From positions 2,728,001 through 2,792,000 of the forward strand of contig NZ_BNEL01000003.1 of NCBI RefSeq assembly GCF_018327685.1: a stretch of DNA of 64,000 nt. The letters run 5' to 3'. Below are positions 11,976-21,826 of this stretch, piece after piece. Position numbers and translations under genes: made by a program. The notes under the pieces were generated by a model, which was given only the letters and a program-made list of their open reading frames with translations, did no database searches and was not told where the DNA came from. Positions within the stretch are counted from its first letter, which is position 1. The number at the start of each line of letters is the position of its first letter. The DNA is from Streptomyces sp. TS71-3 (lineage in GTDB: Bacteria; Actinomycetota; Actinomycetes; Streptomycetales; Streptomycetaceae).

Positions 11976-13124
11976 TCAGCCGCCGAGGGCGTGGGCGGCG
12001 GCGTGCTGGGTGGCGAGGTGGGTGTGCAGGCCCTCGCCGTACGCGGTGGGCGTGCCGTTGTAGTCGCTGATCAGGGACGGACCCGAGGAGCAGTCCCAGG
12101 TGTTCCAGGTCCAGCCCAGATAGCCGGCGCCGTGCTGGTCGGCCCAGTTCATGACCTGGTCGACGAAGCCGTGCGCGCAGTCGTTCTCACCGATCTCGGA
12201 GAGCGTCAGCGGCACCTGCCGGGCGACGGGCGCGAGCTGGCTGTCGAAGCAGGACGTGCTGGAGCAGGTGTTGAAGTTGTACAGGTGCGCGAAGGCGGCC
12301 AGGTTGCCGGCCGGGTCCTTCGGCGCGTAGGCGAGCCACTGCGTCAGGTCGTTGGAGTAGGCGAGGCCGCCCAGCAGGATGACGTCGGTGTTCCCGGTCT
12401 TGCGCACCGCGTCCACCAGGCTCTGGAATCCGGCCACCTGGTAGCCGATGCCCGGGCAGCTGCCGCCGTCGCGCCAGCAGGTCCAGCCGGTGGTCTCGTT
12501 GCCCGTGGCACGCTCCGGGTAGGGCTCGTTGAACAGGTCGAGGACCACGCGCCGGTCCTGGAAGGCACTGGCCACGCCCGACCAGAAGGCCGGCGCGTAC
12601 TGGGCGTCGGGCATGGGTTTCTGGCAGGTGGCCGCGGTGTCGGCGCAGCCCGCGGACGGGCCCGAGTAGGCGCCGTGGCTCCAGTGCATCTCCAGGATCG
12701 GCGTGATGCCGGCCGCCAGCAGCATCTTCACATAGGCGGCCACGGCGCTCTGGTAGGCCGCGCCGCCGTAGGCCGCGGGGACGTTCGCGGTGCCCAGCCA
12801 GCACTCCTCGTTGAGGGGCACGCGCACCGCGGTGACGTGCCAGGACCGGATGGCGTCGACGGACGCGCGGTCCATCGGCCCGTCCCAGAACCCGTTGCCC
12901 TGGATGCAGGCGAACTCGCCACCCGAGCGGTTCACGCCGAGCAGCCGGTACGGGGTGCCGGAGGCGGTCACCAGCCGGTTGCCGGACACCTTGAGCTCGG
13001 GCGCCGCCGCGGCGGCCGGGGCCGCCGGCGCGGCACCCGCCTCGGCCGCGGGGACGGCGATCGAGAACGCGGCGGCGGCGAACAGGGCCAGCGCGGACGC
13101 AAGGAGCGAGACATGACGTCTCAT
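11976..13124 (-). CDS. secreted GH5 cellulase-like glycoside hydrolase
   Basis: 382 aa. The ATG at 13124 gives a standard signal peptide (MRRHVSLLAS..., cleavage near residue 29-32) and an Ala/Pro-rich mature start. The GH5 barrel begins GTPYRLLGVNRSGGEF; Glu200 in LFNEPYP is the acid/base and Glu310 in LSEIGEND the nucleophile. Several cysteine pairs suggest disulfides. There is no CBM. The operator at 13226-13239 implies cellobiose-type control. Endo-beta-1,4-glucanase is most likely; a mannanase or other beta-glucanase cannot be excluded because the subfamily is not recognised. Confidence 0.87.
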   Translation of the reverse strand: MRRHVSLLASALALFAAAAFSIAVPAAEAGAAPAAPAAAAAPELKVSGNRLVTASGTPYRLLGVNRSGGEFACIQGNGFWDGPMDRASVDAIRSWHVTAVRVPLNEECWLGTANVPAAYGGAAYQSAVAAYVKMLLAAGITPILEMHWSHGAYSGPSAGCADTAATCQKPMPDAQYAPAFWSGVASAFQDRRVVLDLFNEPYPERATGNETTGWTCWRDGGSCPGIGYQVAGFQSLVDAVRKTGNTDVILLGGLAYSNDLTQWLAYAPKDPAGNLAAFAHLYNFNTCSSTSCFDSQLAPVARQVPLTLSEIGENDCAHGFVDQVMNWADQHGAGYLGWTWNTWDCSSGPSLISDYNGTPTAYGEGLHTHLATQHAAAHALGG

Positions 13125-13225
13125 GGGGGGATCCCTTCGTTCTCGCGACAGTTGCTGGAGAAGCGCTCCTGGGTGAGAAGCACCGCATGGGTGGTGCACG
13201 AAGAGCTGCGGGAGGCTTCGATGGA

Positions 13226-14674: not shown

Positions 14675-14859
14675 CGGGGCATCGCCGGGGTGGGGCCGGG
14701 GGAGTCAGGGGCCTCCACCCCGGGTGTACTCCCGGCCCGACTCGCCTGCCGGTGGTCCGAGATGCCCGTCGCACGGCAGTGTTCCCGCGTAGTCATGCGG
14801 AAATCTCGTGAAAATGCCGAGGGCATCTGGTGGAGCATCAAGGAGTCCCTGCAACGGCA
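14675..14859. other. intergenic region upstream of LPMO promoter
   Basis: 185 bp after the lipoprotein gene with no recognisable gene; it leads into the LPMO promoter and its 155-nt leader. Confidence 0.5.
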
Positions 14860-14903
14860 TTTACGCGTCATCCGGCCCGCGCTAGGTTATGGGAGCGCTC
14901 CCA
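14860..14903 (+). promoter_or_regulatory. LPMO promoter with perfect CebR-type operator
   Basis: -35-like TTTACG (14860-14865), 17-bp spacer, -10-like TAGGTT (14883-14888), then TGGGAGCGCTCCCA at 14890-14903, identical to the known CebR consensus. The operator sits on the predicted transcription start. Confidence 0.85.
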
Positions 14904-15058
14904 TTTGGCGTGGGCTCGTTCCCCTGTGTCGTGGGCCGCTGTGGGAAGCGCGCACCTGCACGGTCACCCGTACGCGCGGCCCGCCGCGAACCGTGGTCCG
15001 TCCGGCCCCTGGGCCGGCACGTACCGCGGTGGCAATCACCCCCCAAGGAGACTCCTTC

Positions 15059-15787
15059 ATGGTCATCCGACTTCTCGAAAGAGCGAAGGTCCCGGTCCGC
15101 CTCCAGCGCCTGCTCGGCGTCTTAGGGGCGGCGCTGCTGGCTCTGGCCTTCGTGTCCGTGTCGACGCCGGCGTCTGCCCACGGCGTCGCCATGATGCCCG
15201 GTTCCCGCACGTACCTGTGTTACAAGAACGGCCAGACGTCGACCGGCGCCCTCAACCCGACCAACGCGGCCTGCAAGGCGGCGTTCGCGCAGTCGGGCGG
15301 CACGCCGCTGTACAACTGGTTCGCCGTGCTCGACTCCAACGCGGGCGGCAAGGGCCAGGGCTACGTCCCGGACGGGAAGATCTGCAGCGCGGGCGACAAG
15401 TCGCCCTACAACTTCTCGGCCTACAACGCGGCCCGCAACGACTGGCCCAAGACCCACCTGACGTCCGGTTCGACCATCCAGGTCCAGTACAGCAACTGGG
15501 CGGCGCACCCGGGTGACTTCCGGGTCTACCTCACCAAGCAGGGCTGGTCGCCGACCACTCCGCTGGCCTGGGGCGACATGACGCAGATCCAGACCGTCAC
15601 CAACCCGCCGGCGCAGGGCGGTGCGGGCCAGGACGGCGGCCACTACTACTGGAACCTCAACCTGCCCTCCGGCCGCAGCGGTAACGCCCTGCTGTTCATC
15701 CAGTGGGTCCGCTCGGACAGCCAGGAGAACTTCTTCTCCTGCTCCGACATCGTCTTCGACGGCGGCAGCGGCCAGGTCACCTTCTGA
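15059..15787 (+). CDS. AA10 lytic polysaccharide monooxygenase, secreted
   Basis: 242 aa. The signal peptide ends STPASA and cleavage exposes His41 as the mature N-terminus (HGVAMMPGSRTYLCYKNG), the first ligand of the copper histidine brace; the second is His150 in SNWAAHPGDF, with the axial aromatic in ENFFSCSD. The size is that of a single catalytic domain without CBM. AA10 enzymes cleave crystalline cellulose or chitin oxidatively; the CebR-type operator and the cellulase neighbours favour cellulose. Codon 22 is TTA, implying bldA-dependent translation. AAGGAG lies 8 nt before the ATG inside the small palindrome AAGGAGACTCCTT, which could partly mask it. Confidence 0.93.
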   Translation: MVIRLLERAKVPVRLQRLLGVLGAALLALAFVSVSTPASAHGVAMMPGSRTYLCYKNGQTSTGALNPTNAACKAAFAQSGGTPLYNWFAVLDSNAGGKGQGYVPDGKICSAGDKSPYNFSAYNAARNDWPKTHLTSGSTIQVQYSNWAAHPGDFRVYLTKQGWSPTTPLAWGDMTQIQTVTNPPAQGGAGQDGGHYYWNLNLPSGRSGNALLFIQWVRSDSQENFFSCSDIVFDGGSGQVTF

Positions 15788-15862: not shown

Positions 15863-15986
15863 ACGGCGGCACCGGGGCCCCGTGCCACAGGGGCGCGGGG
15901 CCCTTCCGCGTTCCGGGCCGGCTCCAAGGCCCGGACGCGTTTTCCCGCTCAGGGCCCGCTCCGGCGCCCTCTGCTACCCTGCCCGT

Positions 15987-16040
15987 ATGCAGCAGCGCGC
16001 CTTGATGACGACGACGCCGGAGAGTCTCCCGGCGCGCTGA
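15987..16040 (+). CDS. threonine leader peptide (17 aa)
   Basis: ATG to TGA encodes MQQRALMTTTPESLPAR. Three ACG Thr codons in a row at positions 8-10 make it a sensor of charged tRNA-Thr, and it is followed by a strong hairpin and a threonyl-tRNA synthetase gene. Probably leaderless, as the -10 box ends 6 nt before the ATG. Confidence 0.75.
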   Translation: MQQRALMTTTPESLPAR

Positions 16041-16056
16041 CCGATGTCTTGAGTCC

Positions 16057-16085
16057 GAAGCCCCGGGGCGACGCCCCGGGGCTTC
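16057..16085 (+). terminator. attenuator terminator hairpin
   Basis: GAAGCCCCGGGGC / GCCCCGGGGCTTC, 13 perfect base pairs with a 3-nt GAC loop, no U-tract, as is common in Streptomyces. It lies 48 bp before the ThrRS start. Confidence 0.85.
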
Positions 16086-16132
16086 GCCGTGTGCCCGGAC
16101 GCGTGCCCCGCACAGACCGTGAGGAGAACGCC

Positions 16133-17359
16133 GTGCACGACCACAAGAGACTCGGCCGGGAACTCGGCCTGTTCGACACCGATCCGCTGATCGGCGCGGG
16201 ACTGCCGTACTGGCTGCCCGACGGTGCCGTCGTACGGCACACCGTGGAGGAGTACATCCGCGACGCCGAGCGGCGCGCCGGCTACCGGCACGTGTGCTCG
16301 CCCGTGCTCGGCAAGCGCGAGCTGTACGAGATCTCCGGGCACTGGTCGCACTACGGCGACGACATGTTCCCGCCGATGGACGTGGGCGGCGAGCAGATCG
16401 TGCTCCGGCCGAGCCTGTGCCCGCACCACGCGGTGATCTACCGCTCCCGCGCCCACAGCTACCGCGAACTTCCGCTGCGCATGGCCGAGCTGGGCGGCAT
16501 GTACCGCTCGGAGCTGTCGGGGGTGCTCGGCGGGCTGACCCGCGTGCGCGCCATCCAGCTCAACGACGCGCACATCTTCTGCTCCGTCGACCAGGTCGCC
16601 GGCGAGGCGAGCGGCGCCCTGGAGATGATCCGCGGGGCCTACCGGGCCCTCGGCATCGCCCCGGCCCGCTACCGCCTCTCCCTGCCAGGGCCCGGCGGCA
16701 AGTACGTGGCCGCCCCCGAACTGTGGCGGCGCGCCACCGCCCTGCTCACCGATGTCCTCGACAGCTCGGGCCTGCCCTACGAGGCGGTCCCGGGCGAGGC
16801 CGCCTTCTACGGGCCCAAGATCGATGTGCAGGTCGCGGACGGCGCCGGCCGGGAGACCACCCTGTCCACCGTCCAGGTCGACTTCCACCAGCCCGAGCGG
16901 TTCGACCTCCAGTACGTCGGCGCGGACGGCGCGAGGCACCGCCCCGTCATGGTGCACCGCAGCATCGTCGGCAGCGTGGAGCGGGCGGTCGCCCATCTGA
17001 TCGAGCAGCACGGCGGTGCCTTCCCGGCCTGGCTCGCCCCCACCCAGCTCGTCGTTCTGCCCGTCTCCGAGGCCGAGGCGGACTGCGCCGAGGCGCTGGC
17101 GCGGCGCTGCCGCGACCTCGGGCTGCGCGCCGAAGCGGTCGGACCGGAGGTGGGCAGCCTGGCGGCGCGCGTCCGCCAGTCCCGGCTGGTGCCGTACCAG
17201 GGCGTTCTCGGGTCCAGGGAGGCCGCCGACGGCACCCTCGCCCTGCGCCTGCGGGACGGCCGCCGCCTCGCGCCCGCCGCCGTCGCGGACGTCCTCGCCC
17301 GCGTCCTCGAACTCGTCGCCGCCCGCTCCGTCGAGCTGTGGGAGGAGGAGGCGGTGTGA
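16133..17359 (+). CDS. threonyl-tRNA synthetase, short form without TGS/editing domains
   Basis: 408 aa from GTG at 16133 (GAGGAG, 6-nt spacing). It begins directly with the class II catalytic core (GLFDTDPLIGAGLPYWLPDG); motif 2 region ELSGVLGGLTRVRAIQLNDAHIFC and the Zn ligands Cys (SLCPHH), His (DAHIF) and His (VMVHRS) are all present. The C-terminal anticodon-binding domain (APTQLVVLPVSEAEADC...) is complete. A usual bacterial ThrRS is about 650 aa with TGS and editing domains, both missing here, so this is probably a second, inducible synthetase (S. coelicolor also has a second ThrRS gene). Expression is likely attenuator-controlled. Such paralogues can confer resistance to ThrRS inhibitors; that role is inference. 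Confidence 0.92.
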   Translation: MHDHKRLGRELGLFDTDPLIGAGLPYWLPDGAVVRHTVEEYIRDAERRAGYRHVCSPVLGKRELYEISGHWSHYGDDMFPPMDVGGEQIVLRPSLCPHHAVIYRSRAHSYRELPLRMAELGGMYRSELSGVLGGLTRVRAIQLNDAHIFCSVDQVAGEASGALEMIRGAYRALGIAPARYRLSLPGPGGKYVAAPELWRRATALLTDVLDSSGLPYEAVPGEAAFYGPKIDVQVADGAGRETTLSTVQVDFHQPERFDLQYVGADGARHRPVMVHRSIVGSVERAVAHLIEQHGGAFPAWLAPTQLVVLPVSEAEADCAEALARRCRDLGLRAEAVGPEVGSLAARVRQSRLVPYQGVLGSREAADGTLALRLRDGRRLAPAAVADVLARVLELVAARSVELWEEEAV

Positions 17360-18142: not shown

Positions 18143-19656
<1,514 letters not shown>

Positions 19657-19657
<1 letters not shown>

Positions 19658-21510
19658 TAGCCGTGGTGTGCCGTGGAGGTGTCCCGCGGCAGCGTGCTGC
19701 CGGTGACGGTGTGCACGCCCCGGGTGGACACCGGCCGGGCGGGCGGCACGGCTTGGTCCGCCCCGGCCGAACGCGCGTCGTGCACCGGTGCGGTGGACGC
19801 CTGCTGCCCGTTCGCGTCGCGGTGGTGGCCGGTGTGCACCTGGCCGGCGGCCGGCACGACCAGCTCGGTGACGGAGTAGCCGGGCAGCGTCAGCGACGCC
19901 TTGCCGCCGCTCACGACCTGGTCGGGGAGCCGGGTGATGGCGGACGTGTTCGCGCCGCTGTACTGGAACACCTGGGCCCGTGTCCTGCTCGCCAGCCCCG
20001 TGACGTTCAGCGGTGTGGTCAGCCCGTCGGTAAACTTGTTGATCACCATCAGCGTCAGCGCGCCGTCCGAGGAGCGCCGCGAGGCGAAGACGGAGACCTT
20101 GTCGGGGTCGGCGCTCGCCGCCGTCAGGGAGGTGTCGCCGAACGCCGATCCCCTGCCGTCGTAGTCGAGGTACATCCGGAACGCGAACGCACCCGGGTCG
20201 GTGGGGGCCGGCGGCGACCAGAGCGTGGCCAGGTCGAGGCCCTCGCGCCCGTAGATGCCGAGCACGTCCGCCTCGGCCAGGGCGCCGTCGATGTGGTCCA
20301 GCGCGCCCCAGTTGTACTCGCTGACGGCGAGCTTGGTGCCGGGGTAGTTCTGGTCCACGAGCTGGCGCATCCGCGGGATGAGGTCCACCGGCTGGTTGAT
20401 CCAGCTCTCGTCGGTGTAGCCGGGGTCCCAGAGCTGCCGGGTGGAGCGCAGCCGCAGGGCCTGGGTGGCAGCGTCCTCACCGCCGCTGGTGATGCCCGAG
20501 CCCTGCGGGTACCAGTGGTTGTCGTAGTAGTCGAGGATCCGGGTGCGGTGCTGCCGCTGGTAGGCGGCCATCTGCCGCAGGTACCAGGTGGCGTAGGGGA
20601 CGCCGCCGTGTGCGGCCTGGTCGGGCGGGTTGGACCAGCAGTCGCCGCCCGTCTCGTTGCACGTCTTCTGGTCGAGCCCGGAGAGCAGGATGGAGTTCCA
20701 GCCCCAGCCGACCGGGCCGAGCGTCCGGGCGCCGGGGTCGGCGGCCTTGACCGCACCCGCGATGGTGTACGTGCTGTCCCTGATCTCGTCGTAGCCGGCG
20801 CCCTCGGGATGCACGTCGCGGTGGGTGGCGTGCCAGATGTCGGCCTCGTTGTCGAGGTCGTAGTACTTCACACCGCCCTTCGCGGCCGTGCCGTACTTCC
20901 CGGTGAGGTGGCGCAGCCAGTCCGTGACGTACGCGGCGCCGGCCCTGACGCTGGTGTCCGCCGGGTCGTTGCCCGTGACGTTCTTGCCGTCCGTGGCCAC
21001 GCCGTTGCCGCAGTCGGGCATCCACTGGTCGGTGCTCTGCTGGGGACCGTACTTCGCCACGCCGAACCCGCAGGCCTTCTCGCGGTCCTTGGGCACCCAG
21101 CCGATCAGCGGCACCGTCAGGATGGTGTCCGCGCCGGCGGTCTCGTCCTTCTCGACGAACTGGTCGGTGCTGGAGCCGTCCGGCAGCCGGGCCGGGTCGG
21201 CGACGTCGTCCGGGATGTTCTCGAAGTACCAGTCGCTGGCCCGGTTGCTGGTGCTGGTGAGGTAGTTGTAGCGGGTGGTGGCGTTGCCTCCCCACCGGTC
21301 CACGGGCAGCTTCAGCTCCTTGGCGAGGCCCGCGTCGGCGAAGTTCATGCCGTAGATGTCCGGGCTGATCGGATGGCCGGCCGCCTTGGCGTCCACGGTG
21401 AGCGCGGGGCCGCCGGCCGCATGGGCCAGCGGGGATCCGGCCACCATGGTCGCCGCGGTGACCACCGCCGCGGCCAGCAGCGGCAGGACCGTCGACCGCT
21501 TGGGGTGCAT
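19657..21510 (-). CDS. secreted GH44 endoglucanase/xyloglucanase, C-terminus possibly cut by MITE
   Basis: 617 aa from ATG 21510 (GGAGGAG, 6-nt spacing). The signal peptide ends SPLAHA near 31. The catalytic domain (TVDAKAAGHPISPDIYGMNF onward) matches GH44; acid/base Glu222 in DLDNEADIWHATH and nucleophile Glu398 in AVSEYNWGALDH are in place. A beta-sandwich domain ends about residue 555 (PGYSVTELVVPAAG). The last 62 residues are a Ser/Thr/Pro/His linker that stops exactly at the end of the MITE-like element, suggesting loss of a further C-terminal domain. GH44 enzymes cut cellulose and xyloglucan internally. Two CebR-type boxes lie upstream. Confidence 0.92.
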
Positions 21511-21689
21511 GAGGGGCTCCTCCCTGAAAGAGCACGAGAACGGCGTGGACCGCGACCATCGAGGCCGGCGGACACACGGGTCCGGCGGGCCGCGGGGGCG
21601 GTGACGGGGAGAACTGGTGGTGCGCGATCTCGTACGTCCTGACCGGGGCATGTCACGCCGCAGGAGGGGAGGCTCAAGACGCAAGGATC

Positions 21690-21732
21690 TGGGAGCGCTT
21701 CCAGAGAACATCCCCCAACCCGACCGCGTCAA
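21690..21732 (-). promoter_or_regulatory. GH44 promoter region with CebR-type operator
   Basis: TGGGAGCGCTTCCA at 21690-21703, 180 bp before the GH44 start. A TTGACG -35-like element lies at 21732-21727; the -10 is not clear. Confidence 0.7.
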
Positions 21733-21826
21733 GGGGATGTTCAACTCTTGTTTCGACGCGGTCTCAGGCGGCTGTTCCCGTGTCGTGATCCTTCAAGTCT
21801 TTGCGCCATACCACTTCCGCAGCGGT

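Follow-up and report, generated by a model that had tools for sequence, protein, structure and literature searches.

A threonine-codon leader that probably controls a backup threonyl-tRNA synthetase in Streptomyces and its relatives

Soil actinomycetes probably make a short, backup threonyl-tRNA synthetase (ThrRS) only when charged threonine tRNA is short, as judged from comparison of the DNA ahead of its gene. A small ORF with a run of threonine codons precedes the gene, and the reading we favour with fair confidence is a ribosome-mediated attenuator, which would sense the charging of tRNA-Thr and act chiefly on the Shine-Dalgarno sequence (SD) of the backup gene by concealing it or leaving it accessible. 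Comparison among loci brings out the leader, its Thr codons and a hairpin (3:4), together with two alternative pairings predicted in relatives, one between the hairpin apex and a downstream segment (L:5) and one between that segment and the SD (5:SD). An earlier step, the pairing 2:3, is plausible on modelling, whilst which way control runs, and whether termination plays any part, is our inference.

The leader and its gene in the window

The window is the whole stretch of DNA analysed, 64,000 nucleotides from Streptomyces sp. TS71-3, and the features of the locus are these:

15975..15980, plus strand: -10-like element TACCCT, 6 nt ahead of the leader ATG (window sequence)
15987..16040, plus strand: thrL-type leader ORF, MQQRALMTTTPESLPAR, with ATG at 15987 and the stop TGA at 16038-16040
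15993..16001, plus strand: segment 1, which pairs with 16031-16039 in a 9-bp outer stem (RNA fold)
16008..16016, plus strand: regulatory codons ACG ACG ACG (window sequence)
16015..16034, plus strand: possible inner hairpin, CGCCGG with CCGGCG (16015-16020 with 16029-16034; by eye)
16027..16032, plus strand: segment 2, TCCCGG, potential partner of segment 3 (16063-16068; by eye)
16057..16085, plus strand: hairpin 3:4, perfect 13 bp (16057-16069 with 16073-16085), loop GAC, without a T-run (sequence)
16065..16074, plus strand: apex L, alternative partner of segment 5 (pairing tests, duplex energy)
16101..16109, plus strand: segment 5, GCGTGCCCC in the window copy, duplex with L of -20.9 kcal/mol
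16121..16126, plus strand: Shine-Dalgarno GAGGAG of the ThrRS gene, with predicted sequestration by segment 5 in relatives only
16133..17359, plus strand: short ThrRS gene, 408 aa, GTG start at 16133 (profile and domain searches)

As TACCCT lies only 6 nt before the ATG, the leader mRNA is probably leaderless, and across the 180 leaders parsed the spacing from -10 element to ATG is 6 or 7 nt under a search rule that permitted 4-9 nt. The sequence-only reading of this DNA had described a 17-codon ORF with three adjacent Thr codons, which is indeed present at 15987-16040, and a stem of 15995-16001 with 16031-16037, which is also present and extends to 9 bp in the RNA fold (15993-16001 with 16031-16039), so that its observation of a Thr leader, a hairpin and a short ThrRS was real. 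The inner hairpin at 16015-16034 is partly exclusive with the outer stem and is absent from the best fold of the window, and hairpins resembling it appear in the folds of relatives. It is apparent that the window copy is an outlier, with a GAC apex, a segment 5 of different sequence and CTCCCGG in segment 2, where six 2:3 pairs were counted by eye; the leader, the hairpin and an ACG-free gene are all intact in it.

The short ThrRS

The product of the window gene scores 423.5 bits against the curated thrS family of NCBIfam, TIGR00418 (cut-off 383.65), and its only Pfam matches are PF00587 and PF03129, the catalytic and anticodon-binding domains, thus the TGS and editing domains are missing, just as had been read from the letters alone. 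A second, full-length ThrRS is encoded in the same genome (L002). The short ThrRS (16133-17356) scores 370 bits against the ThrRS of solved structure 1nyq and 319 bits against its own housekeeping ThrRS L002, a difference hinting at a separate origin, with the two scores coming from different searches. In an observation on the surroundings, the neighbouring genes at 11976-13199, 14690-15787, 18143-19219 and 19657-21744 encode what we take, from their translations, to be secreted cellulose/chitin enzymes (GH5-, AA10-, GH6- and GH44-like).

An argument from drug resistance of the active site was tried for the backup enzyme and rejected. Borrelidin resistance arises by changes at Leu489 of E. coli ThrRS (PMC4389257; this and the other papers given by PMC number are cited for the available part of their text), and Gln stands at that position in 88/88 short ThrRS copies read, yet the housekeeping ThrRS encoded in the same genome likewise has Gln there, so the residue is no distinguishing mark of the backup enzyme. 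The position of E. coli Gly463 (PMC11252418, available part) remains Gly in the short ThrRS, the E. coli numbering in both cases being carried over by counting from the FYGPK motif. An in-frame stop flagged in several relatives was likewise set aside, for no stop lies inside the best matched stretch of five TGA-flagged genes (L151-L155), the ones among the flagged genes that this reading covers, and in these the TGA appears to be the ordinary gene end. In L156 (genome G174) the ThrRS gene is really broken.

Conservation and distribution of the leader

A scan of genome contigs gave at least 560 relatives, the best 80 of which were kept, and 187 upstream regions were assembled from these 80, 60 same-genus loci, 7 from a phylum sample, 39 from a class sample and the window. 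A leaderless-type ORF with adjacent Thr codons is found upstream of the short ThrRS in 180 of the 187, the run being three codons long in 174, two in 4, four in 1 and five in 1. When the same rule was applied to 976,773 nt of flanking background it returned zero ORFs with three Thr and one with two, and the Thr leader upstream of ThrRS is far beyond chance. As for the seven regions without a parsed leader, L005 and L190 are cut by a contig end, L092 and L124 have the leader core and failed the rule for the start or for the -10, in L142 the leader is lost and the hairpin kept, and the genes at L133 and L148 are ThrRS of other types (55% and 50% identity). When the 80 loci and the window were examined, the peptide ended in TTTPESVPAR in 68 of 79 parsed leaders. 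Of the two refuting conditions proposed with the sequence-only reading, the one addressed by this comparison, a leader ORF and stems not conserved in orthologues, failed, as both are strongly conserved.

A strict leader pattern occurs at 122 places in 121 of 295 same-genus genomes, with a reversed control pattern found in 0/295; the window copy was missed by it, having CTCCCGG instead of GTCCCGG. Nearly all of these places (118/122) are followed on the same strand, after 83-254 nt, by a ThrRS match. The other four appear to be leaders outliving their gene, with remnants of ThrRS that is internally deleted in G099 (L157), truncated in G221 (L159) and fragmented beside the second copy in G022 (L160), and an orphan in G197 (L158) beside which no ThrRS was detected. 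Matches to the ThrRS itself are found in 133/295 same-genus genomes (E<=1e-100; these include one full-length ThrRS, in G223, and a few fragments), in 62/394 genomes of the class sample (E<=1e-110) and in 12/396 of the phylum sample (E<=1e-115), the named relatives among the matches listed being Streptomyces, Streptosporangium, Microbispora, Saccharopolyspora and Frankia.

The leader is also carried by distant copies of the gene. Seven of nine relatives of 50-58% identity have a Thr leader (L145, L146, L147, L149, L150, L181, L182), mostly with a different peptide, and none was found in the remaining two, L133 and L148. When 17 leaders were folded alone most had an outer stem together with a hairpin close to where the Thr run ends, the outer stem being kept with a different sequence in L180 (CAGTGC:GCACTG), L182 and L095 and not seen in the folds of L146 and L150. 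Over dinucleotide shuffles the mean z of fold stability is -2.15 for the 180 leaders; taken singly, L146, L147, L150 and L181 are no more stable than shuffles (z -0.3 to -0.7).

Codon use in leader and gene

The Thr codons of the leaders are ACG in 531 of 539 cases (ACC 6, ACT 2), and those of 80 short ThrRS genes are ACC in 968 of 1012, with ACT 42, ACG 2 and ACA 0. In 161 flanking long ORFs the share of ACG among Thr codons is 34.6%. The window gene has ACG at 0/10 Thr codons, and a further 14 short ThrRS genes have it at 7/132, five of the seven in one gene. Threonine itself makes up a median of 2.9% of residues in the short ThrRS vs 6.2% in the flanking ORFs.

The anticodon GGU reads ACC and ACU, whilst CGU and UGU read ACG, and genome G000 has tRNA-Thr with the anticodons CGT, TGT and GGT, in a survey that scanned the loci of 30 of 61 tRNA hits. 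A leader of almost only ACG would therefore watch tRNA-Thr(CGU/UGU), and a gene of almost only ACC/ACU would be made with tRNA-Thr(GGU), which would keep it translatable while the ACG-reading tRNAs are short. If this is true the sensor starves first and the output starves last. It seems that at one locus, in many genomes, a single Thr codon is used in the sensor and the same codon is removed from the output. The theory of selective charging holds that leaders use the codon that is most sensitive to limitation in translation (PMC1183508, available part).

It could be that ACG is scarce, independently of the leader, through the codon bias usual in genes of high expression, which we consider unlikely, although the housekeeping thrS is also poor in ACG (1/26 in G000, 10/64 in four cores) and TCG too is used less in the short ThrRS gene (34.4 vs 49.4%). 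The other NNG codons are near the flanking values (GCG 35.8 vs 41.2%, CCG 55.8 vs 58.0%), and among genes with at least 8 Thr codons 77/79 short ThrRS genes are free of ACG vs 0/158 flanking ORFs, which argues against a general bias.

Pairings at the ribosome binding site

The common sequences are GGTCACTCGCC for segment 5, GGCGAGTGCC for apex L and GCGAGGAGACC for the SD region, with segment 5 able to pair with either of the other two. An AAGT apex is found in 14 loci, in 11 of which segment 5 is CACTTGC and in 10 of which the SD region is GCAAGG or GCAGGG. For the first permutation sets 133 of 141 loci were kept, loci being dropped where the leader, the hairpin or the SD could not be parsed or where over 75 nt separated the hairpin from the start. 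With relatedness among loci only partly controlled, as also in the column tests, the own partners of L:5 give -23.61 vs -22.30 kcal/mol for permuted partners in 127 unique combinations, a difference reached in 0/500 permutations; in 3 of 16 minority apex types of this set their own segment 5 does no better than that of the majority, or ties with it. The full set of 172 unique combinations gives -22.92 vs -21.05 kcal/mol (0/500), and the 69 combinations with an apex other than GAGT give -22.94 vs -19.17 kcal/mol with random partners (0/500). For 5:SD the figures are -17.60 vs -15.77 kcal/mol (129 combinations, 0/500), and the SD has a pairing probability above 0.5 in 130/133 loci, a raw figure without a shuffled baseline.

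Alignment columns, counted over the 109 of 128 sequences left after thinning, have 93.6% standard pairs for L:5 (35.9-56.0% when slid) with 24 double-change cells (slid 1-9), and 83.9% for 5:SD (slid 38.1-49.3%) with 27 double-change cells (slid 13-25), the latter being near the slid controls, so that 5:SD owes its support to pairing more than to double changes. The L:5 pairing is thus well supported by comparison, 5:SD is supported in relatives, and L:5 has the predicted properties of a competing anti-sequestor able to free the SD. In the window copy sequestration by 5:SD is no better than chance (fold z -0.1).

The switch and the question of termination

In the mechanism that we propose, transcription would start at the leader ATG. 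When Thr-tRNA is plentiful the ribosome would reach the leader stop and cover segment 2, allowing hairpin 3:4 to form, segment 5 would then be available to the SD region, and their pairing would keep translation off. When the ribosome stalls on the ACG codons segment 2 would be exposed and could pair with segment 3 while arm 4 has yet to be transcribed, so that hairpin 3:4 would be blocked, and apex L would capture segment 5, leaving the SD free.

Equilibrium folds of six full-length loci give 3:4 a probability of 1.00 with the ribosome absent, stalled or at the stop, and by equilibrium folding alone no switch is visible in these six; as 3:4 wins in every state modelled, control must be kinetic. 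For a transcript that stops right behind the apex, the expected number of 2:3 pairs is four or more in 94%, 84% and 62% of 176 loci when the ribosome stands at Thr1, Thr2 and Thr3, in 14% when there is no ribosome and in 8% when it stands at the stop. Region 2 forms 8.46 pairs, compared with 5.94 when the downstream sequence is shuffled, exceeding its own shuffled mean in 152/176 loci, and since the shuffled sequence still gives 5.94, much of the predicted 2:3 pairing comes from base composition. No covariation was detected between 2:3 partners (202/500 permutations, 76 combinations).

Hairpin 3:4 had been called a perfect 13-bp terminator, and whilst the 13-bp stem at 16057-16085 is exact, the role of terminator is doubtful. 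The hairpin is found in 176 of 180 loci (missing in L181, L182, L193 and L197), a T-run of at least 4 follows it in 6 of the 176, and in the window no T-run follows it and a terminator scan was empty. One locus, L095, has a textbook U-tract after the hairpin and termination may operate in that lineage. A purely classical transcription attenuation, with 3:4 as an intrinsic terminator that in actinomycetes would need no U-tract and 2:3 as the antiterminator, would account for the strong GC hairpin, for the six loci with a T-run and for 2:3 being predicted mainly with a stalled ribosome. It would leave 170/176 loci without a T-run of at least 4, and L:5 and 5:SD, which form downstream of hairpin 3:4 and could not affect termination there, are nevertheless supported by partner permutation; termination is called unclear also in the available text of the S. 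lividans study (PMC8079986), and we regard the purely classical form as improbable. The attenuation proposed from the sequence is supported as a ribosome-read Thr leader dedicated to the short ThrRS and not supported in its terminator-based form, with control of the SD being the reading preferred here. As to a T-box, which reads tRNA directly without a leader ORF, Rfam searches returned nothing for the window at gathering score and nothing for six loci at E<=0.1.

A WblC-type promoter

The sequence GAAAWY starts 31-35 nt before the -10 element in 53 of 155 non-redundant promoters, as against a mean of 0.13 and a highest count of 2 in 500 shuffles, although this range was set after the table of positions had been seen (43 of 64 hits are at exactly 33) and the published spacing predicts 31-34. 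Promoters in relatives fit the motif, -35 and spacing given for WblC (PMC7157823, available part); the window promoter has no such box at 31-35 nt. The same paper lists thrS2, presumably the short ThrRS gene, as WblC-activated in its Table 1 and says that wblC itself has an upstream-ORF attenuator, with SCO3778 being absent from its main text as available. That the leader might, like the upstream ORF of wblC, sense slowed translation generally or an antibiotic-stalled ribosome rather than Thr-tRNA would suit the box at published spacing, the activation of thrS2 and the wblC attenuator (PMC7157823, available part), but is very unlikely, as the Thr runs are kept with ACG at 531/539 whilst neighbouring codons vary (the parsed loci, 180/187, being selected for a Thr run) and the downstream gene encodes ThrRS.

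There may also be a link at this locus between the WblC stress response and tRNA charging. It is conceivable, at a little under even chances, that the complete design is a division of tRNA-Thr isoacceptors between leader and gene, a five-segment SD switch of L:5 against 5:SD and a WblC stress promoter.

Comparison with known systems

Parts of this system are already known, namely thrL in S. lividans, thrS2 in the WblC regulon and predicted attenuators for trpS and leuS. A thrL upstream of thrS on a leaderless transcript is reported in S. lividans TK24 (PMC8079986), which is like the window system, and its peptide as given there, MKRVRPFLETTPGFVPAR, is encoded identically by L112 and L136, whose ThrRS are 75% identical to that of the window. 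The available part of that report describes two Thr and a hairpin without a U-run, calls termination unclear and, unlike the present analysis, takes up neither an SD switch nor conservation nor codon use. Leaders had also been predicted in 2005 for the synthetase genes trpS and leuS (PMC1262725, available part), and with thrL itself reported the arrangement is not new in the form that the sequence-only reading gave it. For the SD switch, the depth of its conservation and the codon split, no description was found in the literature searched, which took in a minority of subscription papers.

The trpRS1 of S. coelicolor, reportedly described by Vecchione and Sello in 2010, is the same kind of auxiliary synthetase under a ribosome-mediated attenuator, in that case antibiotic-resistant, and is said to differ in its Trp codons and in being controlled transcriptionally. 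Translational attenuators of the ermC type, in which a stalled leader ribosome frees a sequestered SD, resemble the proposed switch in the release of the SD, but their signal is a drug-bound ribosome and not the charging of a cognate tRNA. The ileS T-boxes and leuA LEU elements of actinobacteria likewise serve a synthetase or amino-acid gene with predicted control of the SD, and in the LEU element, unlike the thrL-type leader, the Leu codons themselves pair with the SD (PMC1262725, available part). The thrS2 of the WblC regulon is named as a WblC-activated synthetase, and relatives have the GAAAWY box at the reported spacing, which the window copy does not have; the available part of PMC7157823 discusses no leader for thrS2.

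The leaders alaL, trpL2 and thrL of S. lividans appear in Table 4 of PMC8079986 and alaS2, trpS and thrS2 in PMC7157823 (available parts of both); with this putative correspondence the genes behind the three leaders may all be WblC-regulon paralogues, and backup synthetases gated by attenuators may be a shared design. The thrL-type locus would itself offer a leader-driven SD switch, with helices that are amenable to compensatory changes in a laboratory Streptomyces.
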